NCBI RefSeq assembly: GCF_002161675.1
Contig: NZ_NFIH01000027.1
Location: forward strand, 1-33,789
DNA: 33,789 nucleotides
Direction: 5' to 3'
Source: Pseudoflavonifractor sp. An44
GTDB taxonomy: Bacteria > Bacillota > Clostridia > Oscillospirales > Oscillospiraceae
A model generated the notes under the pieces. The model was not told where the DNA came from. It searched no databases and worked only from the letters and a program-made list of their open reading frames with translations. A program made the translations under genes and the position numbers. Positions 5,935 to 31,443 of this stretch are shown here, piece by piece (positions within the stretch are counted from its first letter, which is position 1; every line of letters starts with the position of its first letter).

Positions 5935-6135
5935 GTTCTTACCTCCCAAGTCATACGAAATTGAAACGCTCTCTCCAAACCATTCTTTCCTCTATCACCT
6001 TCCATTCTTACGCTGTATCGGATCTCCGACCCAGGGCGGCACGCCCCACACACGAACCCTTGACCAATCCCTGTGGGGGCGTGTACCTCCCATGTTCAAC
6101 TGCTTTTTACAGACAGCGCCGTTCCAGCTGACGCA
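5935..6135. other. Intergenic gap between the two GH20 genes
   Basis: A 201-bp gap with no convincing terminator and no clear sigma-A promoter on the minus strand. It holds a long-loop inverted repeat: CACGCCCCACA at 6040-6050 against TGTGGGGGCGTG at 6072-6083, with one bulged G. The lack of a terminator suggests readthrough from the upstream GH20 gene into the downstream one, i.e. a two-gene operon. The inverted repeat may stabilise or process the mRNA. Confidence 0.4.
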
Positions 6136-11237: not shown

Positions 11238-13667
11238 ATGCATATTCACCCTGCCCATATTCGTATTGAGCACATGGACAACTCGTCCATAGAGCACATA
11301 CAACCCGCCTGGCGTCACTGTCGAAATACTGCCAGATTTGCCTCATGGGCACTTTCACCCATTTCCTTATCTGATACTGCCTATTTGTCCGGACTTCTTC
11401 ATGATTGCGGAAAATTTACCTGCGCTTTTGAATCGTACCTAAGAAAAGCCGCACACGGTGAAAAGGTCATCCGAGGCTCTGTAAACCACACGTTTGTAGG
11501 GGTGCGATATCTGCTCAGAAACCACCACTCGCCCCAAATTACCACCTCTGACATCGTCAGTGAGTTGCTGGCCTATGCCGTAGGCGCACATCATGGCCTC
11601 TTTGACTTGGCAAGAGGCCATGACACCTCCGGCTTTGCACACCGTCTGCAAGCTTCTCCTGATTTGCTCTACGAACAGGAGGCTCTCAATAACTTTTGGA
11701 TGGAATGCAGCACGCCCGAGGAAATCCAACAGCTTTTTCTCCGCAGTACGGATGAATTGGCCGCCACATTTCAAACTCTGATGTCACTATCCCAATCCCA
11801 AGAGGAGCATGTTCCGTTTTACATGGGACTGCTATCCAGACTTATCCTATCCGCTGTCATTCAGGGAGATCGCAGGGATACGGCGGAATTCATGACACAA
11901 ACCTCCCAACCGTTTTTTTCACAATGTGGAAACACAAACTTGGACACCTGGTCCGCTTCCCTCGCCTATATGGAGCAGAAATTGGGGGAATTCCCCCAAG
12001 AGTCCCCAATCCAACTGGCGAGAAATCGTATTTCAGAACTTTGTCTCCACATGGGCACATCGGACCGTGGACTGTATTCACTGAATGTGCCCACTGGTTC
12101 AGGGAAAACCCTATCCTCCCTTCGCTTTGCCCTGGCCCACAGCAAGCACCAAAACATGCAGCGAATTTTCTTCATCATGCCACTTCTCTCCATTATAGAA
12201 CAAAATAGTGATGTCATCCGGGAGTTTGTTGGCAACCCTTCTCTCGTCTTAGAGCATCATTCCAACGTCGTTGCGCCACAGGACGATGATGATAGCTTAC
12301 ACACCCAGGAGCTTCTTACAGAAGATTGGAGTGCGCCCATCGTCATTACCACTTTAGTCCAATTTTTAGAGACACTCTTTTCCGGCAGAACCACTTCCAT
12401 CCGACGCTTTCACGCTCTTTGTGACAGTGTGATTGTCATAGACGAGGTGCAGAGTGTCCCTGGACATATGCTCACCTTGTTCAATTTGGCACTTAACTTT
12501 TTAACAACGGTGTGCAAGGCAACGGTGGTGCTGTGCTCTGCAACACAACCTACCTTCGAGAAGACCATTCATCCGTTGTACCGCTCTCCCACCCCCATTG
12601 TCCCCTACGACAAGAGTTTATGGGCCGTCTTTGAGCGTACCACCATCCAGTATGCAGGCTCCATGACATGTGCCGAAATATCCGAGTTTCTCTTACAGCT
12701 TTTGCCCCAACACCGTAGTGTTCTCATCATTTGCAACAAAAAAAGTACCGCTGCCCAGCTCTATGCTTCTGTTTCATCTGACAGCTTTGCCAGCTGTTAT
12801 CACCTTTCCGCTTCCATGTGCATGGCTCATCGCCGCTCTACATTGGAACAGATGAATGCCGCACTTCGCGACCCACAAAAGCTGGTAATCTGTATCTCCA
12901 CCCAAGTCATAGAAGCTGGGGTTGACATCTCCTTTGGCTGCGTTGTCCGTCTTACGGCCGGAATGGACAGCATTATCCAGGCTGCAGGCCGATGCAACAG
13001 AAACAAGGAATCCACCCAGCCAGCTCCCGTATATATCGTTGGCTGTGTAGACGAGCACCTCACACACCTGCGGGAAATTCAAGCAGCGCAACATGCCACC
13101 GAATGTCTCTTGGCTGCCTTTGAAAAAGACCCCCAGGCGTTCCACCACAGTCTGACCTCTGACGAGTCGATTTCTTACTACTACCACCAACTATATCGAA
13201 GTATGCCAGATGAATACCAGGATTTCAAACTTCCAACCATGAGGACCAGCATTTATTCCTTGCTATCCAATAACAAAGATTTGGTGTCCGATGAAAGCTG
13301 TCAGTTTTTTATGCAGCAGGGATTCCAGACTGCCGGAGCCCAGTTCTCCGTATTTGACACTCAAACCGTGGATGTCTTGGTTCCCTATGGGGAAGGTTCC
13401 TCTATTATCGCTGATTTTTGCTCCGAACAAGCCATGTACGACATATCCTTCCAGCTATCCCTTGTCCAAAGAGCCAAGCCATACACCATATCCCTGCTGC
13501 AATACCAAAGGCAACAATTAGAACAAAGCGGAGCTCTGACCCCCATCTGCCATGGAACCATGCTGGCATTGAACGAGGCATATTACCATGAGCATATCGG
13601 ACTGGTCATGAACCCCACAAACGAAAACTCACTGGAGGTGACCGCATGCGACATCCTAATATTGTAG
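11238..13667 (+). CDS. cas3: Cas3 helicase-nuclease, type I-C
   Basis: An 809-residue fused HD nuclease and SF2 helicase, the enzyme that Cascade recruits to nick and unwind target DNA. The HD domain shows H27, the metal-binding H55-D56 in GLLHDCGK, and the HH pair at 118-119 in YAVGAHHGLFD. The helicase shows Walker A PTGSGKT near residue 285-291 and motif II DEVQ at 402-405 (VIDEVQSVPGH). CSATQPT and the motif VI region QAAGRCNRN follow. Length and order are normal for I-C. The ATG at 11238 has GGAG 9 nt upstream. The gene overlaps cas5c by 22 bp, indicating translational coupling. No frameshift or missing catalytic residue is seen, so the interference module appears intact. Confidence 0.95.
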   Translation: MHIHPAHIRIEHMDNSSIEHIQPAWRHCRNTARFASWALSPISLSDTAYLSGLLHDCGKFTCAFESYLRKAAHGEKVIRGSVNHTFVGVRYLLRNHHSPQITTSDIVSELLAYAVGAHHGLFDLARGHDTSGFAHRLQASPDLLYEQEALNNFWMECSTPEEIQQLFLRSTDELAATFQTLMSLSQSQEEHVPFYMGLLSRLILSAVIQGDRRDTAEFMTQTSQPFFSQCGNTNLDTWSASLAYMEQKLGEFPQESPIQLARNRISELCLHMGTSDRGLYSLNVPTGSGKTLSSLRFALAHSKHQNMQRIFFIMPLLSIIEQNSDVIREFVGNPSLVLEHHSNVVAPQDDDDSLHTQELLTEDWSAPIVITTLVQFLETLFSGRTTSIRRFHALCDSVIVIDEVQSVPGHMLTLFNLALNFLTTVCKATVVLCSATQPTFEKTIHPLYRSPTPIVPYDKSLWAVFERTTIQYAGSMTCAEISEFLLQLLPQHRSVLIICNKKSTAAQLYASVSSDSFASCYHLSASMCMAHRRSTLEQMNAALRDPQKLVICISTQVIEAGVDISFGCVVRLTAGMDSIIQAAGRCNRNKESTQPAPVYIVGCVDEHLTHLREIQAAQHATECLLAAFEKDPQAFHHSLTSDESISYYYHQLYRSMPDEYQDFKLPTMRTSIYSLLSNNKDLVSDESCQFFMQQGFQTAGAQFSVFDTQTVDVLVPYGEGSSIIADFCSEQAMYDISFQLSLVQRAKPYTISLLQYQRQQLEQSGALTPICHGTMLALNEAYYHEHIGLVMNPTNENSLEVTACDILIL

Positions 13668-14374
13668 AATTTGAGGTTTGGGGAGATTACGGACTCTTTG
13701 CAGAGCCTATCCTCCGGGTAGGCGGAGAAAAATGTACTTATCAGGTTCCAACCTACGAGACACTCAAGGGCATCCTGTCCTCAGTGTACTGGAAACCCAC
13801 TTTTATTTGGTATATTGACGCTGTCCGAGTCATGAATCAAATTCAGACAGAGGTCAAAGGAATTCGTCCCATCCACTACAACGATAGCAGAAACGACCTC
13901 TCCTACTACACCTATCTTAAAAACTGTCGGTATCAGGTTCGTGCTCACTTTGAATGGAACGAAAATCGGCCGGAATTAGCCAAAGACCGCAACGAAAACA
14001 AACACCACGAGATTGCAAAGCGTATGATTACAAAAGGCGGACGGCGGGATATTTTTTTGGGAACACGGGAGTGCCAGGGGTATGTGGCGCCTTGTGTATT
14101 CGGCGAAGGCGAAGGGTTCTACGACAGCCTCGCAGAACTGAGCTTTGGATTGATGTATCACGGCATCACCTACGCCGACGAGGCTTACTCCACACAAACT
14201 CAGGCAGCCATGACCGCTCACTTTTGGTACCCAGTGATGAAAAACGGAGTCATTTCCTTTTTGCGTCCCGAAAGCTGTCCGCTGCATAAACGACTGGGTG
14301 ATATGCGCATGAAAGTGTTCGGTGCAGATACAGGAAATTTTTCAGGCTTACGTGAATTTGGGGAGGTGACATAA
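13646..14374 (+). CDS. cas5c: Cas5c (Cas5d), crRNA-processing endoribonuclease
   Basis: A 242-residue Cas5 of the I-C branch, which replaces Cas6 as the enzyme that cuts repeat RNA. The family start VEFEVWGDYGLFAEP is followed by PTYETLKGIL containing Y37. The motif NENKHHEIAKRM contains K119-H120. These align by position with the catalytic Tyr, Lys and His described for the Bacillus halodurans enzyme. It should cut just 3' of the 8-bp repeat stem, leaving an 11-nt 5' handle on each crRNA, and it remains in Cascade as the handle-binding subunit. The start lies inside the end of cas3, with GGAGGTGA 5 nt upstream. The stop codon abuts the GTG of cas8c. Confidence 0.95.
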   Translation: MRHPNIVEFEVWGDYGLFAEPILRVGGEKCTYQVPTYETLKGILSSVYWKPTFIWYIDAVRVMNQIQTEVKGIRPIHYNDSRNDLSYYTYLKNCRYQVRAHFEWNENRPELAKDRNENKHHEIAKRMITKGGRRDIFLGTRECQGYVAPCVFGEGEGFYDSLAELSFGLMYHGITYADEAYSTQTQAAMTAHFWYPVMKNGVISFLRPESCPLHKRLGDMRMKVFGADTGNFSGLREFGEVT

Positions 14375-16177
14375 GTGGGATTATTCCAAAAAGCAGTGGA
14401 AACCTATGATTCTTTTATCCAACAGGCGGGACATATCACCGAAGGAGAGGAACCTTTAGCACCATGTTTTCACACGCTAACCCGAGCAGATTTAGACATT
14501 ACAGTTGGCTCAGATGGTGCATTCATATCTGCTTCTGCCGTAGATAAAACTGAATCAAAAATTATCATTCCGGTCACGGAGGAATCCGCCAGACGCACCT
14601 CACATCCCTGTGCACACCCTCTCAGCGACCAACTGAAGTATCTGGCCTCCTATGATAAAAAACGCCACGAAGACTACCTAAAGCAATTGACAGACTGGAG
14701 CAATTCCCCCTATACACACCCGAAACTCGCCCCAATTCTGCGTTATATTCAAGGGGATACCATTTTAACCGATCTTCTCCGCGCCAATCTCATTAAGATA
14801 AATGAGCATAGTCTCCCTGTAAAGGACGACCTGCTGGTGCGCTGGCGGGTCATTGGTCTGGGCAAAGATTTGGACGGCCCTTGTTGGACAGACAGAAGTT
14901 TGTTCGAAGCTTTTCGGAAATATATCGTCCACTGCAAAATGACTGCCTGTCCCGTTCTCTGTATGATAGAGGGCACTCTGTCTACTCCCGCTGAAAAGCA
15001 TCCCAAGGGCGTTGTCCCCTTCCACGGAAATGCCAAGCTGATTTCCGATAATGACAAAGACAATTTCACCTTTCGAGGCCGCTTTGTGACCTCTCAGCAG
15101 GCAGCTACAGTCGGCTACGAGGCATCACAAAAAGCCCACAACGCCCTTCGCTGGCTTGTGGCAAACCAAAAAGTTTCATTTGGTGGAAGGACTTTTTTAT
15201 GTTGGTGTCCCCAGGGTATGGTGATTCCCAAACCCCACAATCCTCTGATGCCGCAACATCAGCAATCACAATCGGTAAAACCGTCAGACTATCAGCGGCT
15301 TCTACAGGAGGCTTTAGAGGGCTGGGAGAATTCCCTGCACGCAATCCACCCTCAGGCTGTGATTGCAGTCTTTGATGCAGCAACTTCTGGCCGTCTCTCT
15401 TTGACATACTACAATGAACTGCAGGCTTTTGACTTTGTCAATCGCCTCTACCAGTGGGACCGCATCTGCTGTTGGACCTTTCAGAACATCGGTGTGAACT
15501 CCCCATCTCTATGGCAAATTATAAATTGCGCCTTTGGCACCGAGCGAAGTGCTGGAAACGCACCCCAATTAGAAACCGACGACAGGGTGTTGCGCCAGCA
15601 AATGCAGCGCCTGTTGGCCTGCCGCATTGAGCAGGCACACATCCCCTCAGATGTGGTTCAGCTTCTTGTGCAGAGAGCTTCGACCCCTCAGTCGTACACG
15701 CCAAAAACCAGAGAGAAAATCTTATTCACCGCTTGTGCCGTAATTCGCAAATTTCACTATGACAGGACAAAGGAGGAATGGGGCATGGCACTAGAGCCTC
15801 AAAAAAAGGACCGGAGCTACCAATATGGACGCCTATTGGCTGTGTTGGAGAAAGCCGAACGGGATACATATCGAGACAATGAAGAGCGTGAGCCCAATGC
15901 AATCCGAATGCAGTCGGTCTTTTCCCAGCGCCCTCAGCGCACAGCTCGTACCATATGGGAACAGGTGAAAAAAGCATACTACCCTCGCCTGAAGCCAGCT
16001 TCCCGTGCTTTCTATGAAAAGCTACTATGTGAAATTCTGGACATCATCTCAGAGTTTCCCGATGAGCAACAAAATCGCCCTCTGTCCGACAGTTACCTCC
16101 TGGGGTATTATCTCCAGAGAAACAGCTTGTATGCCAAGCGAGAGAACCACACAGAGAACAATAAGGAGGAATCATAA
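14375..16177 (+). CDS. cas8c: Cas8c (Csd1), Cascade large subunit
   Basis: A 600-residue large subunit of type I-C Cascade, responsible for PAM recognition and target-strand contacts. Identification rests on the N-terminal MGLFQKAVETYDSF pattern, the length (family about 570-620), FGGRTFLCWCPQG and AVIAVFDAATSGRLS in the middle, and the position between cas5c and cas7c. The start is the GTG immediately after the cas5c stop, with AGGTGA 5 nt before it. The final 130 codons also form a second protein, Cas11c, from an internal start at 15785 (listed separately). Fast divergence of Cas8 means few residues can be called catalytic or invariant by eye. Confidence 0.93.
   Translation: MGLFQKAVETYDSFIQQAGHITEGEEPLAPCFHTLTRADLDITVGSDGAFISASAVDKTESKIIIPVTEESARRTSHPCAHPLSDQLKYLASYDKKRHEDYLKQLTDWSNSPYTHPKLAPILRYIQGDTILTDLLRANLIKINEHSLPVKDDLLVRWRVIGLGKDLDGPCWTDRSLFEAFRKYIVHCKMTACPVLCMIEGTLSTPAEKHPKGVVPFHGNAKLISDNDKDNFTFRGRFVTSQQAATVGYEASQKAHNALRWLVANQKVSFGGRTFLCWCPQGMVIPKPHNPLMPQHQQSQSVKPSDYQRLLQEALEGWENSLHAIHPQAVIAVFDAATSGRLSLTYYNELQAFDFVNRLYQWDRICCWTFQNIGVNSPSLWQIINCAFGTERSAGNAPQLETDDRVLRQQMQRLLACRIEQAHIPSDVVQLLVQRASTPQSYTPKTREKILFTACAVIRKFHYDRTKEEWGMALEPQKKDRSYQYGRLLAVLEKAERDTYRDNEEREPNAIRMQSVFSQRPQRTARTIWEQVKKAYYPRLKPASRAFYEKLLCEILDIISEFPDEQQNRPLSDSYLLGYYLQRNSLYAKRENHTENNKEES
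15785..16177 (+). CDS. cas11c: Cas11c small subunit from an internal in-frame start within cas8c
   Basis: Type I-C Cascade is known to need a small subunit translated from an internal site in the 3' part of cas8c. Here the in-frame ATG at codon 471 of cas8c (after EEWG) is preceded by AAAGGAGG at 15769-15776 with an 8-nt spacing, one of the strongest Shine-Dalgarno matches in the operon. Translation gives 130 residues, starting MALEPQKKDRSYQYGRLLAV. The product is mostly helical and charged, the expected size and character of Cas11c. It shares its stop codon with cas8c. Gene finders normally miss it because it lies wholly within cas8c in the same frame. Confidence 0.78.
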   Translation: MALEPQKKDRSYQYGRLLAVLEKAERDTYRDNEEREPNAIRMQSVFSQRPQRTARTIWEQVKKAYYPRLKPASRAFYEKLLCEILDIISEFPDEQQNRPLSDSYLLGYYLQRNSLYAKRENHTENNKEES

Positions 16178-16179
16178 TC

Positions 16180-17019
16180 ATGGGTGTATTGCAGAATAAA
16201 ATTGATTTCGTGGCGCTGGTATCCGCTCACATGGCCAATGTCAACGGCGACCCGCTCAACGGGAATCGTCCCAGAACGGACTATAACGGGTTTGGTGAGA
16301 TGTCTGATGTGTGCATCAAGCGCAAAATCCGCAACCGGATGCAGGACTTAGGTCATTCCATCTTTGTGAAATCCGAGGACCGCTGTGACGACGGATTTAG
16401 CAGCTTGAAGGAACGTGCAGCTGCCCAAATGGGCAAAGAGAAGGACAAAGACATCTATGCACAAAAAGCCTGTGAGACTTGGCTAGACGTCCGCACATTT
16501 GGACAGGTGTTTGCATTCAAAGGAAATAACGAAGTGTCCTTGGGTATCCGTGGTCCAGTTTCCATTCACCAGGCTGTCAGTGTCTCTCCTGTGGAGATAC
16601 AGTCCATGCAAATTACGAAAAGTGTAAACGGAGACTCCAGTGAAAAGCGGTCATCTGACACCATGGGCTCCAAGCATTTTGTGAGATTCGGCTTGTACAT
16701 TGTCAAAGGCTCCATCAATGTCCAACTTGCTGAGAAAACCGGATTTACAGAGGAGGATGCACAGGTCATCAAAGAATGTCTGCGTACGCTTTTCGTCAAC
16801 GATGCCTCTTCTGCCCGCCCAGACGGCTCAATGGAAATCGTCAAGCTGTTTTGGTTCCAGCATAATTGCAAAGACGGGCAATACTCTTCTGCCACAGTAC
16901 ATCGTTCCGTACACGTTGCTTTGAAGGAGGAGAGCATCCTCCCAGAAAGTGTGGACGATTATACCATTGAATTGGAACCTTTGGATGGTCTCGTCCCTGA
17001 AATTATGGTAGGGTTATGA
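16180..17019 (+). CDS. cas7c: Cas7c (Csd2), Cascade backbone
   Basis: A 279-residue backbone protein that polymerises along the crRNA spacer. The I-C Cas7 signature is clear near the N-terminus: SAHMANVNGDPLNGNRPRTD, then MSDVCIKRKIRNRMQD. Further on are TFGQVFAFKG and IRGPVSIHQAVSVSPVE, and TMGSKHFVRFGLYIVKG. The length is typical. The ATG at 16180 has AAGGAGGA about 8 nt upstream. The start codon follows the cas8c stop by two bases, and the stop overlaps the cas4 start (ATGA), consistent with coupled translation. Confidence 0.95.
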   Translation: MGVLQNKIDFVALVSAHMANVNGDPLNGNRPRTDYNGFGEMSDVCIKRKIRNRMQDLGHSIFVKSEDRCDDGFSSLKERAAAQMGKEKDKDIYAQKACETWLDVRTFGQVFAFKGNNEVSLGIRGPVSIHQAVSVSPVEIQSMQITKSVNGDSSEKRSSDTMGSKHFVRFGLYIVKGSINVQLAEKTGFTEEDAQVIKECLRTLFVNDASSARPDGSMEIVKLFWFQHNCKDGQYSSATVHRSVHVALKEESILPESVDDYTIELEPLDGLVPEIMVGL

Positions 17020-17684
17020 GCAGTTGCAGCCAGGAAGAGTATCTCCAGCTCTCCGGCCTCCAGCATTTCGCCTTTTGTCGGCGGCAATGGGCGCTGATTC
17101 ACATCGAGCAGCTGTGGAGGGAAAACCTGCGCACGGTGGAGGGGCAGCTGCTCCACCGCCGTGCTCACGATGAGTCCCAACGAGAACGACGGGGAAATTT
17201 ACTCATCCTCCGGGGCCTTGCCATCCAATCCTCCACGCTGGGCGTCTCTGGTGTCTGCGATGTGGTGGAATTTCACGCCTCGCCCCAAGGTGTCCCCATT
17301 CACGGGGAAGAAGGCCTTTGGCTTCCCTATCCCATCGAGTACAAGCGTGGGAAACCAAAAACCAACCAAGCCGATGAGCTGCAATTGTGTGCCCAAGCCA
17401 TGTGTCTGGAGGAAACGCTGTGCTGCTCCATCCAAGAAGGGGCTCTCTTTTACGGAGAAACCAAGCGGAGAACCGTGGTTTCCTTTGACTCTGCATTGCG
17501 GAAACAGGTGGTTTCCCTGCTCCAGGAGATGCACCAGCTTTATCGCCGGGGCTATACCCCCAAGTGCAAACCAACCAAGTCCTGCAATGCCTGTTCCCTG
17601 AAAGAGCTGTGCCTTCCCAAACTCATGAAGAAACAGAATGTATCGGCCTATCTGCGCTCAGCCATGGAGGAGGACGTGCCATGA
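17016..17684 (+). CDS. cas4: Cas4 PAM-end processing exonuclease
   Basis: A 222-residue RecB-like nuclease with an iron-sulfur cluster. The first cluster cysteine is C21 in FCRRQWA and the other three are in CNACSLKELC near the C-terminus. Nuclease motifs are GVCDVVEF (Asp), PIEYKRG (Glu and Lys) and DELQLCAQAMCLEE (QxxxY-like motif IV region). In type I-C, Cas4 works with Cas1-Cas2 to find the PAM and trim that end of a prespacer exactly. This fits the array, where the PAM-side ends of repeated spacers are identical while the other ends are ragged. The start overlaps the cas7c stop by four bases and the stop overlaps the cas1 start. Confidence 0.94.
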   Translation: MSSCSQEEYLQLSGLQHFAFCRRQWALIHIEQLWRENLRTVEGQLLHRRAHDESQRERRGNLLILRGLAIQSSTLGVSGVCDVVEFHASPQGVPIHGEEGLWLPYPIEYKRGKPKTNQADELQLCAQAMCLEETLCCSIQEGALFYGETKRRTVVSFDSALRKQVVSLLQEMHQLYRRGYTPKCKPTKSCNACSLKELCLPKLMKKQNVSAYLRSAMEEDVP

Positions 17685-18712
17685 GACAACTGCTCAACAC
17701 CCTGTTTATCACCTCACCCGATATTTACTTATCTCTGGATGGGGAAAATGTGGTGGCCAATCGGGAAAAGGAAGTCCTGGCCCGGTATCCTCTGCATACC
17801 TTGTCCGGCATTCTCTCCTTCTCCTACTCCGGTGCCTCTCCCGCCCTCATGGGTGCCTGCGCCAAGCGAAATATCTCCCTGTCCTTTTGCTCTCCCAACG
17901 GACGGTTTCTGGCCCGAGTATGTGGGGAAAGCAGCGGAAATGTGCTCCTTCGCCGCACGCAATATCGAATTGCCGACGACCCCGCCTCCAGCTGCCGAAT
18001 TGCACGCAATATGATCTTCGGAAAAGTCCACAATGCCCGTTGGAGCATTGCCCGAACCAAACGAGACCACGCTCTGCGTGTGAATGTGGACGATTTAGCG
18101 CAGACCATTGAAACCCTCAAAGGATTACTGCCTCAAATTCTCTCCGAGACCGATCTGGACGCTCTGCGTGGACTGGAAGGAGCCGGAGCTACCGCCTACT
18201 TTCACGCCTTTGGCCAGATGATTTTGGGGGATCCCACCGTATTCTCCTTCCATGGCAGAAATCGCAGACCACCGCTGGACCCAGTCAACGCTCTACTGTC
18301 TTTTGCCTACAGCCTTCTGGGTAACGACTGCGCCTCTGCCTTGGAAGGGGTGGGTTTGGACGCCTATGTGGGATTCCTCCACCGAGACCGCCCCGGGCGA
18401 ACCTCTCTGGCTTTGGACTTGATGGAGGAATTACGCCCGTGCATGGCAGAACGCTTTGTCCTGACCTGCATTAACAACCGTATCTTCCAGGCCCAGGATT
18501 TCGTCTATCAAGAGAGCGGAGCCGTTCGTCTCACCGATGAAGCCCGGCGCATCTTCCTGCAACGGTGGCAAGAGCGAAAAAAGGAGCTCATCACCCATCC
18601 ATATCTGGAGGAGAAAATTCCTTGGGGGCTGGTTCCATGGGTGCAGGCTCTCTTGCTCAGCCGTCATCTCAGGGGCGACTTGGAGGAGTACCCACCGTTT
18701 CTCTGGAGGTAG
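17681..18712 (+). CDS. cas1: Cas1 integrase
   Basis: A 343-residue Cas1 of the I-C type, the catalytic subunit of the spacer integrase. The metal-binding residues appear intact: E166 in RGLEGAGA, H234 in GFLHRDRPGR, and D246 with E249 in LALDLMEELRP. The N-terminal beta domain starts MRQLLNTLFITSPDIYLSLDGENVV. The ATG at 17681 overlaps the cas4 stop as ATGA and is preferred over a much longer upstream open frame that runs through cas4 in another phase. Intact active-site residues and the very long array suggest adaptation has been working well. Confidence 0.95.
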   Translation: MRQLLNTLFITSPDIYLSLDGENVVANREKEVLARYPLHTLSGILSFSYSGASPALMGACAKRNISLSFCSPNGRFLARVCGESSGNVLLRRTQYRIADDPASSCRIARNMIFGKVHNARWSIARTKRDHALRVNVDDLAQTIETLKGLLPQILSETDLDALRGLEGAGATAYFHAFGQMILGDPTVFSFHGRNRRPPLDPVNALLSFAYSLLGNDCASALEGVGLDAYVGFLHRDRPGRTSLALDLMEELRPCMAERFVLTCINNRIFQAQDFVYQESGAVRLTDEARRIFLQRWQERKKELITHPYLEEKIPWGLVPWVQALLLSRHLRGDLEEYPPFLWR

Positions 18713-18716
18713 AAAC

Positions 18717-19007
18717 ATGCTGGTTCTGATTACGTATGACGTGAATACCCAGGATGCCGCTGGGCGCAAGCGGCTGCGGCAAATCGCCAAACAATGTGTC
18801 AACTACGGACAACGTGTCCAATGTTCTGTGTTCGAGTGCCTGCTGGACGCTGCGCAATGTCGCATGCTTCAGGCCAAGCTGTGCAGCATTATGGATGCCG
18901 AGAAAGACAGCCTGCGTTTTTACTACCTGGGCAATAAGTATGAGAGTAAAATCGAACACTTCGGCGCCAAACAAACCTATGAACCCGAGGGTGCGCTTAT
19001 CTTATAG
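18717..19007 (+). CDS. cas2: Cas2 integrase structural subunit
   Basis: A 96-residue ferredoxin-fold protein with the usual opening MLVLITYDVNT, including the conserved Asp8, and a C-terminal strand ending EPEGALIL. It bridges two Cas1 dimers in the integrase. The ATG at 18717 is chosen because GGAGGT lies 7 nt before it and it follows the cas1 stop by four bases; the longer open frame upstream is inside cas1. It is the last gene of the operon and ends about 180 bp before the first repeat, so adaptation genes and leader are adjacent. Confidence 0.95.
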   Translation: MLVLITYDVNTQDAAGRKRLRQIAKQCVNYGQRVQCSVFECLLDAAQCRMLQAKLCSIMDAEKDSLRFYYLGNKYESKIEHFGAKQTYEPEGALIL

Positions 19008-19187
19008 GTTTGCCAGGTGCGAAGGGGAAGCTCTCATAACATCCCTGGGAGGTTCGCACACACATTTTTCCAGTTTATGTGAGGAGTAGAGATTTTCTCA
19101 CCTCCGCAATTGTAGCACTTAGAATTTATACTGTGTAATCTGTGCAAGGAACACAACGATTCACCTCGTACCTTGTATAGATTTGCT
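19008..19187 (+). promoter_or_regulatory. CRISPR leader
   Basis: A 180-bp gap between cas2 and the first repeat with no gene. Its position, and the degenerate repeat at the opposite end of the array, mark this as the leader where new spacers enter. A possible array promoter is TTGTAG at 19110-19115 with TGTAAT at 19134-19139 (18-nt spacing). TATACT at 19127-19132 is an alternative -10 box. No terminator is visible after cas2, so readthrough from the cas operon may also feed the array. Confidence 0.7.
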
Positions 19188-22100
19188 GTCGCACCCCACA
19201 CGGGGTGCGTGGATTGAAATTTACTAGCTTTCAGCGTAAGAGGGAATAGAGGTAGTCGCACCCCACACGGGGTGCGTGGATTGAAATTGCATCAGGCAAT
19301 CCACTGAACTACACGAAAACGAGTCGCACCCCACACGGGGTGCGTGGATTGAAATCTGAACACCAAAACCGTGCAAGACGAACTATGGACGAGTCGCACC
19401 CCACACGGGGTGCGTGGATTGAAATACTGATGCAGAGTTGGACGGTGTGGTGAAAAAGAAGTCGCACCCCACACGGGGTGCGTGGATTGAAATAATTATG
19501 CCTTAACAGCAAAAGACCGAAAGTCGGTCGCACCCCACACGGGGTGCGTGGATTGAAATATAATCGCCTCGGTCAGATCGCAAATGAAGTAAGTCGCACC
19601 CCACACGGGGTGCGTGGATTGAAATTGGTTTGGGAAGAAACCGGTGACAGCACGGAAAGGTCGCACCCCACACGGGGTGCGTGGATTGAAATAAATCTGT
19701 GGTCAAGCCAATACGACGGGCATTGAGTCGCACCCCACACGGGGTGCGTGGATTGAAATTCCTTCCAGTGGGACGGATTGATTATCCGGGCGTCGCACCC
19801 CACACGGGGTGCGTGGATTGAAATCGCTCTGACGTGGCCAAGGCTCTGGGCTCCAATGGGGTCGCACCCCACACGGGGTGCGTGGATTGAAATACAACCA
19901 GCGGGCTATTAGCGAACGACGTGTGCACGTCGCACCCCACACGGGGTGCGTGGATTGAAATTCCGAGGGCTGGGCGGTCTCTCCCACCGTCCAAATCTCG
20001 TCGCACCCCACACGGGGTGCGTGGATTGAAATGGTAGTGGAACTGGAAGCAGTCGAGTCCATGGTCGTCGCACCCCACACGGGGTGCGTGGATTGAAATA
20101 CAATCACAGTGTTCATTGGAATACAGCCCCCTCGTCGCACCCCACACGGGGTGCGTGGATTGAAATGGGGAGTGGGTAAAGACCAAGACAGGGTACTCCC
20201 AGTCGCACCCCACACGGGGTGCGTGGATTGAAATTTGCCCACCGTCACCTCCCCGTCGGTGGTGTCTCCGTCGCACCCCACACGGGGTGCGTGGATTGAA
20301 ATCGCCCTCCACAATGGCCTGCTTAATGTGGATGGGTCGCACCCCACACGGGGTGCGTGGATTGAAATCTGCAGAGGAGCGGGAAGAGTTTGCCCGGGAG
20401 AACGTCGCACCCCACACGGGGTGCGTGGATTGAAATTGGTGGCCGTGGTGGCTGTGTGCGCCTTTGCCATGGGGTCGCACCCCACACGGGGTGCGTGGAT
20501 TGAAATCCCGTGTCAGAGGATGATGCACTAAACAATATATGGTCGCACCCCACACGGGGTGCGTGGATTGAAATCACACTCCGCCACCCGGATTACCGGG
20601 GTTGTCAAGTCGCACCCCACACGGGGTGCGTGGATTGAAATTTTGTTTTGCTTTGCGGCAGAAATCCTTGCCAAAAGTCGCACCCCACACGGGGTGCGTG
20701 GATTGAAATGTGCCGCTCATGCCCTCCAACGCCATCCGGCGGATGGTCGCACCCCACACGGGGTGCGTGGATTGAAATCTGCGGGACTTATACAAGACAC
20801 TCCTGTCCACATAGTCGCACCCCACACGGGGTGCGTGGATTGAAATCGAAGGCTCCGGCGAATCTCCATGCACTTGCACGGGTCGCACCCCACACGGGGT
20901 GCGTGGATTGAAATTCAATATGTGGGATCACATCAACACACATCCCGTGTCGCACCCCACACGGGGTGCGTGGATTGAAATCTGGGTGAGTGGGCGGCCA
21001 CAGTTTGGGCAGAAGGTCGCACCCCACACGGGGTGCGTGGATTGAAATGCCTGGATTCTGCTGTTTGCCCTTTTCGGCGGTGGTCGCACCCCACACGGGG
21101 TGCGTGGATTGAAATGGTGCGTTGGTCACGGCGACGACCTAAAAAGCCGTCGCACCCCACACGGGGTGCGTGGATTGAAATTGAAAGACCTTCTCAGCCC
21201 CCGCTCCAGTTGCCGCGTCGCACCCCACACGGGGTGCGTGGATTGAAATGACATGATATGGCAAGATGCAGTTGTCCCGGCCATGGGTCGCACCCCACAC
21301 GGGGTGCGTGGATTGAAATTGTGAGGTGACACATGGAAGTATTGGTTATCAACGGGTCGCACCCCACACGGGGTGCGTGGATTGAAATGCTTGCGTCAGG
21401 TGACTTTATACGCACCCAGGATGTCGCACCCCACACGGGGTGCGTGGATTGAAATGCAAACTCTTGGGCACTCAACATTTTATCACCTCCGGTCGCACCC
21501 CACACGGGGTGCGTGGATTGAAATATCAAAATCCCTCCCATCAAACCCGCTCAAATCTAGTCGCACCCCACACGGGGTGCGTGGATTGAAATTCTTTGTC
21601 CGGTGTAATCTTCCGCACCGATACGATGTCGCACCCCACACGGGGTGCGTGGATTGAAATAATCCACCTCACAATCTCAAATATCGCCAATCCCGTCGCA
21701 CCCCACACGGGGTGCGTGGATTGAAATAGGCCAGTGCATCAGATCCGCCCCGCTCGCTTTGGTCGCACCCCACACGGGGTGCGTGGATTGAAATTTTGAC
21801 AGTGAATTTACCGTCGGCGCAGCTGTCTCCCGTCGCACCCCACACGGGGTGCGTGGATTGAAATCGCAGGATGCGGAATGTTTTACCGTTAAACTACCGC
21901 GTCGCACCCCACACGGGGTGCGTGGATTGAAATGACTTCTCCACGTCCGGCACGGCGTGGAACGGCGGGTCGCACCCCACACGGGGTGCGTGGATTGAAA
22001 TCGGTCGACTACATCATTGACCACGACTACCGTGGGTCGCACCCCACACGGGGTGCGTGGATTGAAATACGGACGAAATGAAGCAGAAATACCTTGAGTG

Positions 22101-25100
22101 GTGGTCGCACCCCACACGGGGTGCGTGGATTGAAATACTCACTGGCCGAAAATGGGGGCAGGTGTATATTCGTCGCACCCCACACGGGGTGCGTGGATTG
22201 AAATTCACAGTACACGGATATGCCTGTTGCCATGAGGCTGGTCGCACCCCACACGGGGTGCGTGGATTGAAATGTTGGTAGGCTTGACGGGGCCGAACAA
22301 CGGACAACGTCGCACCCCACACGGGGTGCGTGGATTGAAATACTCACTGGCCGAAAATGGGGGCAGGTGTATATTGTCGCACCCCACACGGGGTGCGTGG
22401 ATTGAAATTGCTTGGCCTGTCCGCACCCGGAAGAGCCGTGCAGTCGCACCCCACACGGGGTGCGTGGATTGAAATGAATCCCACCCCCGGCTCCACGTTC
22501 CAACCCAAGTCGCACCCCACACGGGGTGCGTGGATTGAAATAATCAATGGCGCAACAAATCTTACAGGACGAAGCGTCGCACCCCACACGGGGTGCGTGG
22601 ATTGAAATAATCGGCTGAGAATGTCGTCCGCCATGTCTTGGGGTCGCACCCCACACGGGGTGCGTGGATTGAAATAACGGCAACTGCGGCGGCGGCCTGT
22701 TTGGCGGCAAGTCGCACCCCACACGGGGTGCGTGGATTGAAATTGGTTTGGGAAGAAACCGGTGACAGCACGGAAAGCGTCGCACCCCACACGGGGTGCG
22801 TGGATTGAAATTTCGGCCTGGACGACCCTGGGAAGATAAAGTCCAGTCGCACCCCACACGGGGTGCGTGGATTGAAATAATCAATGGCGCAACAAATCTT
22901 ACAGGACGAAGCAAAGTCGCACCCCACACGGGGTGCGTGGATTGAAATACCGCAAGATAAAGGCCGGAGAGGTAAGGGAGTTCGTCGCACCCCACACGGG
23001 GTGCGTGGATTGAAATTCACAGTACACGGATATGCCTGTTGCCATGAGGCGTCGCACCCCACACGGGGTGCGTGGATTGAAATCAGTGTGATTACACCGA
23101 CCAGATACCCAGCAGCGGGTCGCACCCCACACGGGGTGCGTGGATTGAAATCCCTCTGTCTACCATGCGTCAAGCCATGCTGGAGGTCGCACCCCACACG
23201 GGGTGCGTGGATTGAAATTGCATTGCCAAGATGGTGGGCACAGCCCCCCTCTGTCGCACCCCACACGGGGTGCGTGGATTGAAATTCTTGAAAAAATGTA
23301 AAGCTAGCTTATATAAAGCAGGTCGCACCCCACACGGGGTGCGTGGATTGAAATCCACAATTATCCAAAATTTGCCCCAGATCATAAGTCGTCGCACCCC
23401 ACACGGGGTGCGTGGATTGAAATACAAGTGGAGCGAAAAGGCAAAAAAGGAGATCCTGGTCGCACCCCACACGGGGTGCGTGGATTGAAATTTGCCAGTG
23501 TAGTGGATATTGAAGGGGATCTGATGTCGCACCCCACACGGGGTGCGTGGATTGAAATAAAACCGAAACCCCGCCCCCGTTCGCAGCTGGAGTCGCACCC
23601 CACACGGGGTGCGTGGATTGAAATGTATGACTCCGGGTCGCTCCAGCAGATAGTCGGGGTCGCACCCCACACGGGGTGCGTGGATTGAAATGTATAGGTT
23701 GGATTTGTTGAGGCATGGCAGGCGAGGGTCGCACCCCACACGGGGTGCGTGGATTGAAATGTGTGGTCGGTGGAATGGTCGTCCACCAGTTCAGTCGCAC
23801 CCCACACGGGGTGCGTGGATTGAAATTGTAATGGTTGTACAGCCTCATTGCGGCTGGCAGTCGCACCCCACACGGGGTGCGTGGATTGAAATATCGGAGC
23901 ATAATGGATATCGCAATAGGATTCCCCGTCGCACCCCACACGGGGTGCGTGGATTGAAATCGAGATGGGGCCGGACTTGATGGCATCGGGAAGGTCGCAC
24001 CCCACACGGGGTGCGTGGATTGAAATCCACAATTATCCAAAATTTGCCCCAGATCATAAGTCGCACCCCACACGGGGTGCGTGGATTGAAATTCCCAAGC
24101 CTGTCCAATCTGGCGGAGGCGTTTGGGTCGCACCCCACACGGGGTGCGTGGATTGAAATTGTAATGGTTGTACAGCCTCATTGCGGCTGGCATGTCGCAC
24201 CCCACACGGGGTGCGTGGATTGAAATACCGAGGCAAGAAAAGAGCACCCCGCCGTTTTTGTCGCACCCCACACGGGGTGCGTGGATTGAAATGTTGCCGC
24301 CCTCAGTGTACAGCAGACAGCCGGAGGTCGCACCCCACACGGGGTGCGTGGATTGAAATAATCATCCAGCGGTAAAGGTTGAGCTGGGCAATCGTCGCAC
24401 CCCACACGGGGTGCGTGGATTGAAATGGGACTGATTAAGTCCATTCCCACAATTATCCAGTCGCACCCCACACGGGGTGCGTGGATTGAAATTCCAGAAA
24501 AAAAGAGGAAGAAAAAGAAAGGAGGGTGTCGCACCCCACACGGGGTGCGTGGATTGAAATCCATCCTCACCAGGCCTTTTCCCAACTGCCAGAGTCGCAC
24601 CCCACACGGGGTGCGTGGATTGAAATATGGCCTCGGAATCAATCCGACAAGCACAACCAAGTCGCACCCCACACGGGGTGCGTGGATTGAAATAAGCAGA
24701 GCCTTGATCCCTGCATACTTAGCCGTGAGTCGCACCCCACACGGGGTGCGTGGATTGAAATCCCTGTCGTCCTTTTTTGTGATGCCAGTCTCAAAAGTCG
24801 CACCCCACACGGGGTGCGTGGATTGAAATCTCAAGGCGGGGAAGGTCCAGCTGGCCTGGGGCTCGTCGCACCCCACACGGGGTGCGTGGATTGAAATACC
24901 GCTTGTCCAATTAAGCTGGCCACCGTATACTGGTCGCACCCCACACGGGGTGCGTGGATTGAAATACCTCCCCACACCATCAGGCCGCACAGGCCAACGT
25001 CGCACCCCACACGGGGTGCGTGGATTGAAATCGTCCGAGGCCACGGCGCAACCTGGAAAGGTTTAGTCGCACCCCACACGGGGTGCGTGGATTGAAATGC

Positions 25101-28100
25101 CGTTGGTTGTGCTTGTCGGATTGATTCCGAGGCGTCGCACCCCACACGGGGTGCGTGGATTGAAATATCAAGCTTATTGGCAAAAATTATTTGGAGGAAT
25201 GTCGCACCCCACACGGGGTGCGTGGATTGAAATTGATGAATAGGAGGAAAAGAACATGATTGACAAGTCGCACCCCACACGGGGTGCGTGGATTGAAATT
25301 ATGAAAATGACTGACGGAAAGCGCACCATCGACGTCGCACCCCACACGGGGTGCGTGGATTGAAATTCCCTTGCCAGTCAGCATGGAGAAGTAGACATAG
25401 GGCACAGTCGCACCCCACACGGGGTGCGTGGATTGAAATCGGGAGCCTGTGCAGATTGCCCGGCGGGCCCCGCGTCGCACCCCACACGGGGTGCGTGGAT
25501 TGAAATCTTATGAGGATATCACCATGGCCATGCGCTGTGAGTCGCACCCCACACGGGGTGCGTGGATTGAAATAGGCCCGCATGCCCAGCATCCAATCCG
25601 CTATGTCGTCGCACCCCACACGGGGTGCGTGGATTGAAATTAAAGCAACTGTAGAGATAACAGGGCAGACTCCGTCGCACCCCACACGGGGTGCGTGGAT
25701 TGAAATTTCTCCAGCGTCAAAGCCTATCACGATGGTATATAGTCGCACCCCACACGGGGTGCGTGGATTGAAATCGGCACTCCACAACTGCACCAGATCA
25801 CTGACCTGGGTCGCACCCCACACGGGGTGCGTGGATTGAAATTCAACGAGACGAAAGCTGTGGCCCAGTCCGTCCGGTCGCACCCCACACGGGGTGCGTG
25901 GATTGAAATGAGCGTCTGGCCCTCGCTGACCAACGACTCGCCGGGTCGCACCCCACACGGGGTGCGTGGATTGAAATCCCGTGTCAGAGGATGATGCGCT
26001 AAACGATATTTGGTCGCACCCCACACGGGGTGCGTGGATTGAAATGCCGAGAGAACCGCCAACATGAAACTTGCAGACCGTCGCACCCCACACGGGGTGC
26101 GTGGATTGAAATTTGCGTGGACACGGCATTAAGCAATGGGACTTCGGTCGCACCCCACACGGGGTGCGTGGATTGAAATCACCAGCTGACCAGGGCGGCC
26201 ACGATGGTGAACCCGTCGCACCCCACACGGGGTGCGTGGATTGAAATAATCTCCAGAACAACTATGGCTATGCCCAGAAGGTGTCGCACCCCACACGGGG
26301 TGCGTGGATTGAAATAATTCTGAGGCCGTACACCTTTTGGGTGCCGTCCGTCGCACCCCACACGGGGTGCGTGGATTGAAATAAACCAACACTAGCACTG
26401 CCAGGGATATGCTCAGAGTCGCACCCCACACGGGGTGCGTGGATTGAAATTCAGCCATGGCGCACACAGCCATTTTGTGGCCCGTCGCACCCCACACGGG
26501 GTGCGTGGATTGAAATTGCATTGCCAAGATGGTGGGCACAGCCCCCCTCTAGTCGCACCCCACACGGGGTGCGTGGATTGAAATGCCGCCTTTTGACGGT
26601 GGGAGCGTTCGGCCTCGATGGTCGCACCCCACACGGGGTGCGTGGATTGAAATTTAGGCCCGTAGTATGTGCGGACATCCAGGTACACGTCGCACCCCAC
26701 ACGGGGTGCGTGGATTGAAATGTGCCGCTCATGCCCTCCAACGCCATCCGGCGGGTCGCACCCCACACGGGGTGCGTGGATTGAAATCTAGCCCCCGAAA
26801 GGGGGCGCATGGAGTGTTACCCGTCGCACCCCACACGGGGTGCGTGGATTGAAATATCTGCTCCGGCGTGAGCAGTGCGGGGCGGGTGTTGTCGCACCCC
26901 ACACGGGGTGCGTGGATTGAAATAGGGAAAAACCTTTTTAACATTTCGGGGGATATAAAGTCGCACCCCACACGGGGTGCGTGGATTGAAATGTGGTTCT
27001 GGAGTATCTTGATGTTTTTGCAGACGTGTCGCACCCCACACGGGGTGCGTGGATTGAAATGCCGCTACGGCAATCGAAAACTTTGGCATGTCCACGTCGC
27101 ACCCCACACGGGGTGCGTGGATTGAAATTTGATGGTCAGGCGGTTATCAGGCCCGATGGTGCGCGTCGCACCCCACACGGGGTGCGTGGATTGAAATGGT
27201 GAAGCATTCATCAAGCCATACCCATCCGGTGTCGCACCCCACACGGGGTGCGTGGATTGAAATATTGCGGCGGCCCACGGCGGCAACATGATTATCAGTC
27301 GCACCCCACACGGGGTGCGTGGATTGAAATCGTTTCCTCCAATCTCTTAATCTGCTCCGGCGTGGTCGCACCCCACACGGGGTGCGTGGATTGAAATTGC
27401 TGGGACTGCCCAGGGAGCTGCCACCACGGCCGTCGCACCCCACACGGGGTGCGTGGATTGAAATCGGCCCAAGACCTGGAGTTCCCCATGCCTATGGATG
27501 TCGCACCCCACACGGGGTGCGTGGATTGAAATTTTAACTCCAATATCAACCCGGAAGTCCCTGTTGTCGCACCCCACACGGGGTGCGTGGATTGAAATAG
27601 GACATCAGCGGCTCCGGCAAGTACATTGGGGCAGTCGCACCCCACACGGGGTGCGTGGATTGAAATTGACTGAGCAGTTCGGCCCGTGCGGAATCGGCTG
27701 GTCGCACCCCACACGGGGTGCGTGGATTGAAATTCGTATCGACGCACTGGAGAAAGCCGCAATGGGGGGTCGCACCCCACACGGGGTGCGTGGATTGAAA
27801 TACGTCAAGTCCACCGTTGGCGGACAACAGTTTAGTCGCACCCCACACGGGGTGCGTGGATTGAAATCTGACTGGGTGCCCGGCATTGGCGGGAACCGTT
27901 TGTCGCACCCCACACGGGGTGCGTGGATTGAAATTGCTGGGACTGCCCAGGGAGCTGCCACCACGGGTCGCACCCCACACGGGGTGCGTGGATTGAAATA
28001 TCAATGCGGACGCCACAGGCAGTTCGCCCGCATGTCGCACCCCACACGGGGTGCGTGGATTGAAATGAGTTTAAGACCGGGGTTGAGTTTGGCAAACGCA

Positions 28101-28877
28101 GGTCGCACCCCACACGGGGTGCGTGGATTGAAATTAAACAATTTTATACTGCCAGTCGTTGGGTGGTTGTCGCACCCCACACGGGGTGCGTGGATTGAAA
28201 TTTTTGTCAAACTTGCCAAAAAGAACAAAGACATCGTCGCACCCCACACGGGGTGCGTGGATTGAAATTCTTTGAGCCGCATGGGCAGGAACAGGCCTAC
28301 CGTCGCACCCCACACGGGGTGCGTGGATTGAAATTGTCAAGTATGGCATGGTGTACACCATCGAGGGCGTCGCACCCCACACGGGGTGCGTGGATTGAAA
28401 TTTGAGAAACGAGCTGGACCGCCTGCCGTTCGAGGTCGCACCCCACACGGGGTGCGTGGATTGAAATTCCTTTCTGGCGGTTATTGCCCAATAGGTACAG
28501 GTGTCGCACCCCACACGGGGTGCGTGGATTGAAATCTTTGTCTGATTCTACCGGCCGAGCGATTTATAATGGTCGCACCCCACACGGGGTGCGTGGATTG
28601 AAATTTGTATCTATGCATTTTAGCATACGTATCATAACGTCGCACCCCACACGGGGTGCGTGGATTGAAATTCTGCGTGGGTTGGGCCAGTCCTCACCGT
28701 CTGCTGTCGCACCCCACACGGGGTGCGTGGATTGAAATTCTGCGTGGGTTGGGCCAGTCCTCACCGTCTGCTGGAGTCGCACCCCACACGGGGTGCGTGG
28801 ATTGAAATCCGTGGTCACACGGGGCGGGATGGAGATTCCCGGGGGTCGCACCCCACACGGGGTGCGTGGATTGAAAT

Positions 28878-28912
28878 AAAAGCCCCGCAGCGGTAAGCTG
28901 CGGGGCTTTGTC
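28878..28912 (+). terminator. Spacer 144: perfect terminator-like hairpin inside the array
   Basis: The spacer contains a perfect 13-bp stem (AAAGCCCCGCAGC at 28879-28891 with GCTGCGGGGCTTT at 28897-28909) around loop GGTAA. This is the form of a bidirectional intrinsic terminator, presumably the terminator of a targeted phage or plasmid. The T run is only three long, so termination efficiency is uncertain. Confidence 0.6.
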
Positions 28913-31274
28913 GTCGCACCCCACACGGGGTGCGTGGATTGAAATACCTCGTAAATTTTAATTAACCGCGAAACTAAAAGGTCGCACCCCACACGGGGTG
29001 CGTGGATTGAAATCACCACGGACAACACTTCATTGGCAATGAAGGCAATGTCGCACCCCACACGGGGTGCGTGGATTGAAATGGATTGCACATCCTCCAG
29101 GGTGCGGGTGTCTACCTCGTCGCACCCCACACGGGGTGCGTGGATTGAAATCGCCGCTGGTCTTTGCGGCGGAACACGGGCCCACGTCGCACCCCACACG
29201 GGGTGCGTGGATTGAAATGGCGTTGAGCCGGGGCCATTTGCCACCAGCTGGAGGTCGCACCCCACACGGGGTGCGTGGATTGAAATCGGCCCAGGACACT
29301 CCAGCTGGAGGACTCTGAGCGTCGCACCCCACACGGGGTGCGTGGATTGAAATCGCCACCCTGTCGGGCGGCCCCCAAATGGATGGGCCGTCGCACCCCA
29401 CACGGGGTGCGTGGATTGAAATCGCACGGGCCGAACTGCTCAGTCAGAACCTTCAACCGTCGCACCCCACACGGGGTGCGTGGATTGAAATATGCTCACC
29501 TTGTCTTTGGTTACGCCTGCACGATACGTCGCACCCCACACGGGGTGCGTGGATTGAAATTGCTCAGTCAGATCATAAGATATAGCAATGTCAGGTCGCA
29601 CCCCACACGGGGTGCGTGGATTGAAATCCCGATCAGATGCTCATGGACATCTGGGGGTATACCGTCGCACCCCACACGGGGTGCGTGGATTGAAATCATC
29701 GCTGGAGAGCAGCGGTGACCCACTGCGTGGCGTCGCACCCCACACGGGGTGCGTGGATTGAAATCTGCTCGTGGCGGGCCAGTCTTTGCCGGATGAGGTC
29801 GCACCCCACACGGGGTGCGTGGATTGAAATCGTTCGGGCCCCGGGCGGCTCCCCCGCCCGGCGTGGTCGCACCCCACACGGGGTGCGTGGATTGAAATTG
29901 AGATCTTAGACGGTCGGTGATCCTGGCGGCGGGTCGCACCCCACACGGGGTGCGTGGATTGAAATGTCCCGAGGCGGGCCGTCCTTTGGCCCGCCTGTCC
30001 GTCGCACCCCACACGGGGTGCGTGGATTGAAATTGCACCATGACCAGGACTTGCCTGCCTGGTTGCACGTCGCACCCCACACGGGGTGCGTGGATTGAAA
30101 TTTTTCAGTTCCAGGTCTAACGCACGGTTGAAGTGGTCGCACCCCACACGGGGTGCGTGGATTGAAATAGCATTTGCATGACCTTGTAAACATTCATGCC
30201 GCCGTCGCACCCCACACGGGGTGCGTGGATTGAAATCCATCTGCTTCTCAGCGATCAGCCACCAGCTGTCGTCGCACCCCACACGGGGTGCGTGGATTGA
30301 AATCTCGGCATCCACTCCCCATCAACCGTGTTTGCCGTCGCACCCCACACGGGGTGCGTGGATTGAAATTTATGCTGTTCAGGCACAATAATCCAGCGAA
30401 ACGTCGCACCCCACACGGGGTGCGTGGATTGAAATATATCAAAGACTCCCAAATGTCAATTTGCCACCGGTCGCACCCCACACGGGGTGCGTGGATTGAA
30501 ATTTATGTTGCTCAGGAACAATTAGCCAACGAACCCCCCGTCGCACCCCACACGGGGTGCGTGGATTGAAATCGAAAATCACGCTTATATTTCAGAGCCT
30601 TCCCCCGTCGCACCCCACACGGGGTGCGTGGATTGAAATATTAAAGAATCAAGCCCGTTATACTCAACAACCTGTCGCACCCCACACGGGGTGCGTGGAT
30701 TGAAATTGTCTGGCGGTTAGATAACCGTACCCAAAATTAAGTCGCACCCCACACGGGGTGCGTGGATTGAAATAGCGGGCAAGGATGGTGGGGCAAGCAC
30801 AACAACAGTCGCACCCCACACGGGGTGCGTGGATTGAAATTTCCAATCGGCCGGGCTCAAAAACCCGGTGACCGGTCGCACCCCACACGGGGTGCGTGGA
30901 TTGAAATTCCATCAGACGGTGCAAAGTGAGCAGGGCAGAGGTCGCACCCCACACGGGGTGCGTGGATTGAAATGTGGAGCGGCCTGGAGCTGCAAGCGCA
31001 GTTTTCCGTCGCACCCCACACGGGGTGCGTGGATTGAAATACCGGGGCGGTAGAGGCCGTCTATGACGGCTCTGTCGCACCCCACACGGGGTGCGTGGAT
31101 TGAAATCTCCTCATATTCGGCCAGGATCTCCCGGTCCAGGTCGCACCCCACACGGGGTGCGTGGATTGAAATACGCCTTTGTCTCCACGGGTGAGCAGCT
31201 GCTCCTGTCGCACCCCACACGGGGTGCGTGGATTGAAATGTTATCATCAAGGCTACCGAGGGAACCCCCCTGGT

Positions 31275-31307
31275 GTCGCACCTCATGCGGGGTGCGTGGG
31301 TTGAAAC
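31275..31307 (+). repeat. Degenerate terminal CRISPR repeat
   Basis: The leader-distal repeat has five changes from the consensus, at repeat positions 9, 12, 13, 26 and 33. All are transitions. The stem survives because the change at position 9 converts a C-G pair to U-G. The final base changes from T to C, so the handle ends GAAAC. Decay of the last repeat is usual and confirms array polarity. Confidence 0.95.
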
Positions 31308-31443
31308 ATCGTTACCTATGGGCGGATGATTGAACTATATCTGCTCTTTCCATTCTCTGAACTCGTCTCTTCTTTTCCCCGTATAAAATATCCATCGAAC
31401 CTCATCGAACAATAAAAAATATCCACCCTCCCTGTGCTGCATG
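31308..31443. other. Gap between array and sigG hairpin
   Basis: 136 bp, AT-rich with runs of pyrimidine, containing no gene. GTATAAAATA at 31381-31390 resembles a -10 region, but no matching -35 box or clear sigma-F or sigma-G promoter was found at standard spacing. If sigG has its own promoter, it should lie here. Confidence 0.4.

Follow-up and report, generated by a model that had tools for sequence, protein, structure and literature searches.

Spacer pairs with a common start and unequal ends in the type I-C CRISPR array of Pseudoflavonifractor sp. An44

The type I-C locus and its array

The stretch analysed, referred to as the window, comprises 33,789 nucleotides of contig NZ_NFIH01000027.1 from Pseudoflavonifractor sp. 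An44 (GCF_002161675.1), a draft assembly of 2.75 Mb in 51 contigs with completeness and contamination figures of 100 and 0, respectively. Comparison with NCBIfam revealed a type I-C set of seven genes on one strand (11238-19007), in the order cas3-cas5c-cas8c-cas7c-cas4-cas1c-cas2. A repeat array starts 180 bases past cas2. The locus is a type I-C CRISPR-Cas system, in which cas4 adjoins cas1c.

11238..13667, + strand: cas3 (helicase/HD nuclease), NCBIfam TIGR01587 and TIGR01596
13646..14374, + strand: cas5c, TIGR01876 (type I-C Cas5c), E 8.7e-70
14375..16177, + strand: cas8c/csd1, TIGR01863, E 2.2e-83
16180..17019, + strand: cas7c/csd2, TIGR02589, E 2.1e-95
17016..17684, + strand: cas4, 222 aa, uninterrupted, TIGR00372, E 3.6e-36
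17672..18712, + strand: cas1c integrase, TIGR03640 (type I-C Cas1c), E 9e-142
18717..19007, + strand: cas2, TIGR01573, E 2.7e-19
19008..19187, + strand: presumed leader, from its placement between cas2 and the first repeat
19188..31308, + strand: CRISPR array, 180 repeats of 33 nt and 179 spacers of 32-40 nt
31276..31308, + strand: terminal repeat, degenerate (5 mismatches), taken as the mark of the old end

Since the last repeat is degenerate and the array starts near cas2, the right end is considered the old end of the array, and new spacers are considered to enter beside cas2. Spacers of 34 and 35 nt are the most frequent (63 and 56, respectively), followed by those of 33 nt (29), 36 nt (20), 37 nt (7), 32 nt (2), and 38 and 40 nt (one each). 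Two big neighbouring frames on the reverse strand (1012-5949 and 6136-9786) have LPxTG-like ends (VPQTGDNSG) and C-terminal parts that are alike; on reading of their translations, they look like glycoside hydrolases of a hexosaminidase-like kind.

The ten same-start pairs

The first-pass annotation had reported ten duplicated spacers with exact common 5' ends and far ends differing by 1-3 nt, and both statements are confirmed: in 10/10 pairs, the longer member begins with the complete sequence of the shorter one, the difference being 1 nt in four pairs, 2 nt in two and 3 nt in four. Common prefixes of 32-34 nt cannot be due to chance. The members of the pairs, and of one diverged pair with the same start, are as follows.

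19626..19659, + strand: spacer 7 (34 nt), partner 53
22744..22778, + strand: spacer 53 (35 nt), partner 7
20710..20745, + strand: spacer 23 (36 nt), partner 112
26722..26754, + strand: spacer 112 (33 nt), partner 23
22137..22171, + strand: spacer 44 (35 nt), partner 47
22342..22375, + strand: spacer 47 (34 nt), partner 44
22205..22240, + strand: spacer 45 (36 nt), partner 57
23017..23050, + strand: spacer 57 (34 nt), partner 45
22542..22575, + strand: spacer 50 (34 nt), partner 55
22879..22915, + strand: spacer 55 (37 nt), partner 50
23219..23252, + strand: spacer 60 (34 nt), partner 109
26517..26551, + strand: spacer 109 (35 nt), partner 60
23355..23390, + strand: spacer 62 (36 nt), partner 72
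24027..24059, + strand: spacer 72 (33 nt), partner 62
23827..23859, + strand: spacer 69 (33 nt), partner 74
24160..24193, + strand: spacer 74 (34 nt), partner 69
27398..27431, + strand: spacer 122 (34 nt), partner 130
27935..27966, + strand: spacer 130 (32 nt), partner 122
28672..28705, + strand: spacer 141 (34 nt), adjacent to its partner 142
28739..28775, + strand: spacer 142 (37 nt), adjacent to its partner 141
20507..20541, + strand: spacer 20 (35 nt), same start as 101
25978..26012, + strand: spacer 101 (35 nt), 3 mismatches to 20

The further statement that the lengths of duplicates always differ is valid for the exact copies, but not for the diverged pair 20/101, whose members are equal in length (35/35). 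Duplicates of equal length inside repeated runs of neighbours, which the annotation had named as evidence against separate acquisition, were not observed among the ten pairs: none is of equal length (0/10), and none has a flanking spacer common to both members on either side (0/10).

On the array's own length distribution, equal length is expected for 26% of random spacer pairs, and the occurrence of no equal pair among ten has a p value of 0.046-0.048 under independent capture, so that the result is only mildly improbable on that reading. Within pairs, the lengths are slightly further apart than expected for independent draws (sum of differences 20, p 0.025); the same sum gave p 0.07 when only the 20 pair lengths were permuted. 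Differences of 3 nt are in excess (4/10 pairs, p 0.016, a class picked out after the fact), and this excess is unexplained. The longer member is the leader-side, newer copy in 5/10 pairs, and this even split rules out a shortening with age in one direction.

Separate capture weighed against copying

Each pair very probably represents two separate acquisitions from one protospacer, the PAM end being fixed and the far end ragged. An identical PAM-side end, a different far end and unshared neighbours, the combination expected of re-acquisition, are found in 10/10 pairs, while the equal length, often with copied neighbours, that characterizes recombinational duplication is absent from all of them. 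The annotation had likewise proposed independent acquisition from the same PAM, and the proposal is sustained by the unshared neighbours, by the constant length of copied blocks in related arrays, by the asymmetry between the two spacer ends, and by templated tails, the last being observed in spacers other than the pairs.

The two acquisitions may also have taken place in different sibling cells, their products being joined later by recombination between arrays or by assembly of mixed strains. Unequal lengths and unshared neighbours would likewise result, and the genome is a draft in 51 contigs; however, such an origin needs recombination at ten places without a common neighbour ever being carried over, and the completeness and contamination figures argue against mixed strains. 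This origin is considered unlikely, and it still assumes independent acquisition.

The behaviour of copied spacers was examined in related arrays. The repeat pattern was found in 66 of 400 family genomes and 17 of 391 class genomes (the genome of the window being in both), and two genus relatives were added by means of a repeat-spacer-repeat query. The control set consisted of 28 array pieces from 25 genomes with 1,138 spacers, mostly repeat-rich arrays, which are classed as I-C-like by their repeat. Same-start exact pairs inside duplicated runs were of equal length in 12/12 cases from three arrays, cases which are not independent, as six of them come from just two spacers, each occurring in three copies and giving three pairs. 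Clean duplications of two- or three-spacer runs, all of equal length, occur in L295 (genome G550, spacers 60-66), L302 (G165, spacers 9-14) and L288 (G391, spacers 37-42). The equality of block-copied pairs suggests that copying keeps length, and the annotation's premise that copying of array blocks preserves it is thus borne out in these three arrays. Equal lengths were also recorded for 4/5 adjacent exact pairs and for 6/9 isolated exact pairs of the controls, the other 3/9 being unequal; single units are thus copied not infrequently among these relatives.

These observations bear on the reading that single repeat-spacer units were copied by recombination or replication slippage and then acquired small indels at the 3' end. 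Related arrays do seem to copy, as evident from the 12 block pairs and the four adjacent and six isolated pairs of equal length, and the SpacerPlacer survey (PMC11472070) classes most duplicate spacers as duplications (695/805) and few as reacquisitions (8/805). Recombinational duplication, as treated there, also gives spacers that are present twice; judged by the control arrays, however, such duplication leaves length unchanged and often takes neighbours along, and neither is the case in the ten pairs. Mutation would moreover not be expected to leave 10/10 pairs free of substitutions and altered solely within their last 1-3 bases. The window has no equal-length pair among ten as compared to 6/9 isolated pairs in relatives (one-sided Fisher p 0.003), and on this ground it carries no sign of copying; single-unit copying followed by indels is regarded as quite improbable for the ten pairs.

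If the newer copy had been taken from the array, or from amplified array DNA, the longer copy would run into the repeat. Spacer 62 does equal spacer 72 plus GTC, with which the repeat begins (a coincidence expected about once in 64 cases), and here the newer member is also the longer, so that such a capture may apply to 62/72. The extra bases are unlike the repeat start in the other nine of the ten pairs, and among all ten the newer member is the longer in no more than five; self-capture was rejected as a general account, for which it is very improbable.

Among 1,317 spacers of 26 genomes, 20 within-genome pairs of unequal length align at their start, comprising 14 exact pairs (10 in the window and 4 elsewhere) and six diverged pairs with 1-5 mismatches, none of which lies in the window, and no unequal pair aligns only at the far end; the survey required a common 14-mer. 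Spacer length scatters in all arrays surveyed, mostly within 33-37 nt. The chance that both ends are ragged, and the common 5' end a coincidence, is negligible in view of this ratio of 20 to 0, and no point in its favour was found.

The PAM and the origin of the tails were examined on protospacers of other spacers. The target set comprised 262 loci (3.27 Mb), namely phages, prophages, stretches of genus relatives chosen partly for matching spacers, and IMG/VR phages. A target at ≤9 mismatches per 34 nt was obtained for 39/179 spacers; reversed spacers gave 3 matches on the same loci as compared to 140, overlapping loci being counted repeatedly. The type I-C PAM motif is 5' TTC. At positions -3, -2 and -1 before the 39 best targets, the commonest bases are T (26), T (23) and C (24), in agreement with this motif, the complete TTC being present in 9/39 and TTT in 5. 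One of the nine precedes the only exact full-length protospacer found for the array, that of spacer 147, which lies on the reverse strand of phage contig L205 (IMGVR_UViG_2788500305_000001) over 36 nt with TTTTC ahead.

29083..29118, + strand: spacer 147 (36 nt), position from repeat spacing

In the 31 spacers whose best targets have ≤8 mismatches, bases at positions ≥34 match the target in 45/50 cases and positions 1-33 in 861/1,023; the cut-off was set on the whole length and somewhat favours tail matches, but untemplated tails would match in only about one quarter. This agreement indicates that the tails of long spacers come from the target, and the extra bases of the ten pairs are probably templated too.

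Four more sets of spacers overlap at other starts or on the opposite strand (62/72 with 78, 114/121, 81/88 and 126/152), and the following members give their positions. Spacers 81 and 88 (24627-24660 and 25099-25133), as well as 126 and 152, each stem from one place on opposite strands. Spacers 19 and 108, having only a 14-nt stretch in common, were set aside as a related set.

24427..24459, + strand: spacer 78, 13-nt overlap with the start of 62/72, TTC directly ahead
27667..27700, + strand: spacer 126, opposite-strand overlap with 152
29423..29458, + strand: spacer 152 (36 nt), position from repeat spacing

The bases ahead of a spacer can be read from its overlapping partner. TTC stands directly before the start of 62/72 (in spacer 78) and of 126 (in the reverse complement of 152), and also before the start of a spacer in genome G300; TTA, not TTC, stands before 114 (in spacer 121) and before a spacer of G152.

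The ten pairs may accordingly be pictured as products of one adaptation machinery. Cas1-Cas2 together with Cas4 would capture a fragment beside a TTC-type PAM; the PAM end would be cut at one exact base, whereby both spacers start alike, and the far end would be trimmed loosely, possibly by another nuclease, whereby lengths scatter by 1-3 nt. A second capture would follow while the same element was met again or was still present, be it in this lineage or in a sibling with later recombination of arrays. The assignment of the fixed PAM-side end to Cas4 appears plausible from the uninterrupted cas4 gene and from published type I-C biochemistry.

In that work, the Cas4-Cas1-Cas2 complex of type I-C is reported to make a precise cut upstream of the PAM and to have no strong activity at sites lacking a PAM (PMC6519985). 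The system concerned, that of Bacillus halodurans, has the same gene set as the window, and the present pattern is what a precise PAM-side cut and weak non-PAM activity predict; the data there were obtained in vitro, whereas here repeated natural outcomes lie in one array. In type I-G, the Cas1 domain of a Cas4-Cas1 fusion is described as cutting the non-PAM end (PMC10504553). In type V-A and V-B systems with Cas4, it is reported (PMC9419969) that Cas4 is needed for PAM selection and that acquired lengths scatter around a mode, although these types differ from that of the window and the assay was in E. coli. Offset or unequal length of matching spacers has likewise been read as independent acquisition in Sulfolobus islandicus (PMC2946923), where the cases mostly involve separate strains whose arrays differ and are for the most part offset (37/41 pairs); the pairs of the window, in contrast, lie within one type I-C array and have the same start. 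No published account of same-start, unequal-end pairs within one I-C array was met among the matches listed, which consist of titles and abstract openings and cover few subscription journals. Precise cutting by Cas4 in type I-C is already published, and the array is a clear natural record of this known mechanism, with one exact and one ragged end of the prespacer recurring from pair to pair.

Protospacers, timing and targets

Protospacers for the ten pairs were not found in searches of phage, plasmid, genus and family genomes, nor in the 262 loci described above. The whole array was compared to INPHARED (near matches, and distant ones in two halves) and PLSDB (near matches) with this result; three distant INPHARED matches had small E-values, the others lying at E 0.1-7, and by their match pattern the three look like CRISPR arrays on faecal contigs. 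Exact 24-28-mers of three pairs (69/74, 7/53 and 122/130) had no match in IMG/VR. All 179 spacers were compared to 41 genus genomes, with up to 7 stretches scored per genome, and other spacers matched but none of the ten pairs. In two family-genome searches, with 2 stretches scored per genome, no convincing match outside the array was obtained for 19 spacers (the longer member of every pair, the diverged spacers 20 and 101, and seven that belong to the overlap sets) in 400 genomes, where identities were 81-93% over 25-42 bases, nor for the ten pairs in 345 genomes, where they were 80-86% over 35-49 bases; several of the outside matches run across spacer joins. This absence is weak evidence, because so few stretches are scored per genome and because, of the 20 pair copies present in the genome of the window, such searches listed 18 and 14.

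In translation, the pair spacers were compared to 101 loci and later to 262, and no score stood out clearly from the background: the best were 48 for spacer 109 and 46 for spacer 74, and reversed spacers reached 48 (all 179, on a smaller set). Only 126/152 met a conserved phage gene in this comparison, and its product reads TEQFGPCGIG. TTC followed by the start of spacer 62 had no match within the window, a result that carries no weight.

The annotation had argued that ten re-acquisitions imply strong hotspots or frequent re-exposure to the same element. An array of 179 spacers with ten repeated captures points to an effective pool of about 1,600 sites, which by rough estimate resembles the number of TTC sites in one or two phage genomes. 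Strong hotspots are not required on these figures. By a rough judgement, the ten exact-site repeats set against the four overlapping sets give no strong sign of special sites either; some unevenness between sites is likely, since several phage types are targeted. The copies of the ten pairs, taken in order of their first member, are 46, 89, 3, 12, 5, 49, 10, 5, 8 and 1 spacers apart (median 9), nearer to each other than chance would place them (permutation p 0.0002), and the four unequal exact pairs of relatives are 1, 2, 17 and 3 spacers apart. The clustering of copies favours bursts of re-exposure, and a few phages encountered in such bursts would be enough to account for the repeated captures.

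For array histories, in which duplicates are mostly classed as copies, these pairs offer a rule for such systems: unequal far ends denote two captures and not a copy. The array further suggests that re-capture comes in bursts, and the clustering of re-captures, together with length as their marker, is its most interesting aspect. Loss of identical copies by slippage is called conceivable by the survey authors (PMC11472070). As a tentative and rather doubtful extension, type I-C cells may re-capture the same protospacer within few acquisitions, in bursts, and equal-length copies may be lost preferentially by slippage, in which case unequal length would both mark and protect a re-acquired spacer.

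Repeated sampling of one phage type is shown by ten spacers (31, 32, 33, 58, 59, 64, 117, 120, 129 and 133) that match the prophage-like contig L056 of genome G004 with 3-9 mismatches, 20 of its 27.5 kb having been examined. Six of them (31, 33, 59, 117, 129 and 133) fall within a single 826-codon open frame (2191-4668), which is taken for the tape-measure gene from its size and place.
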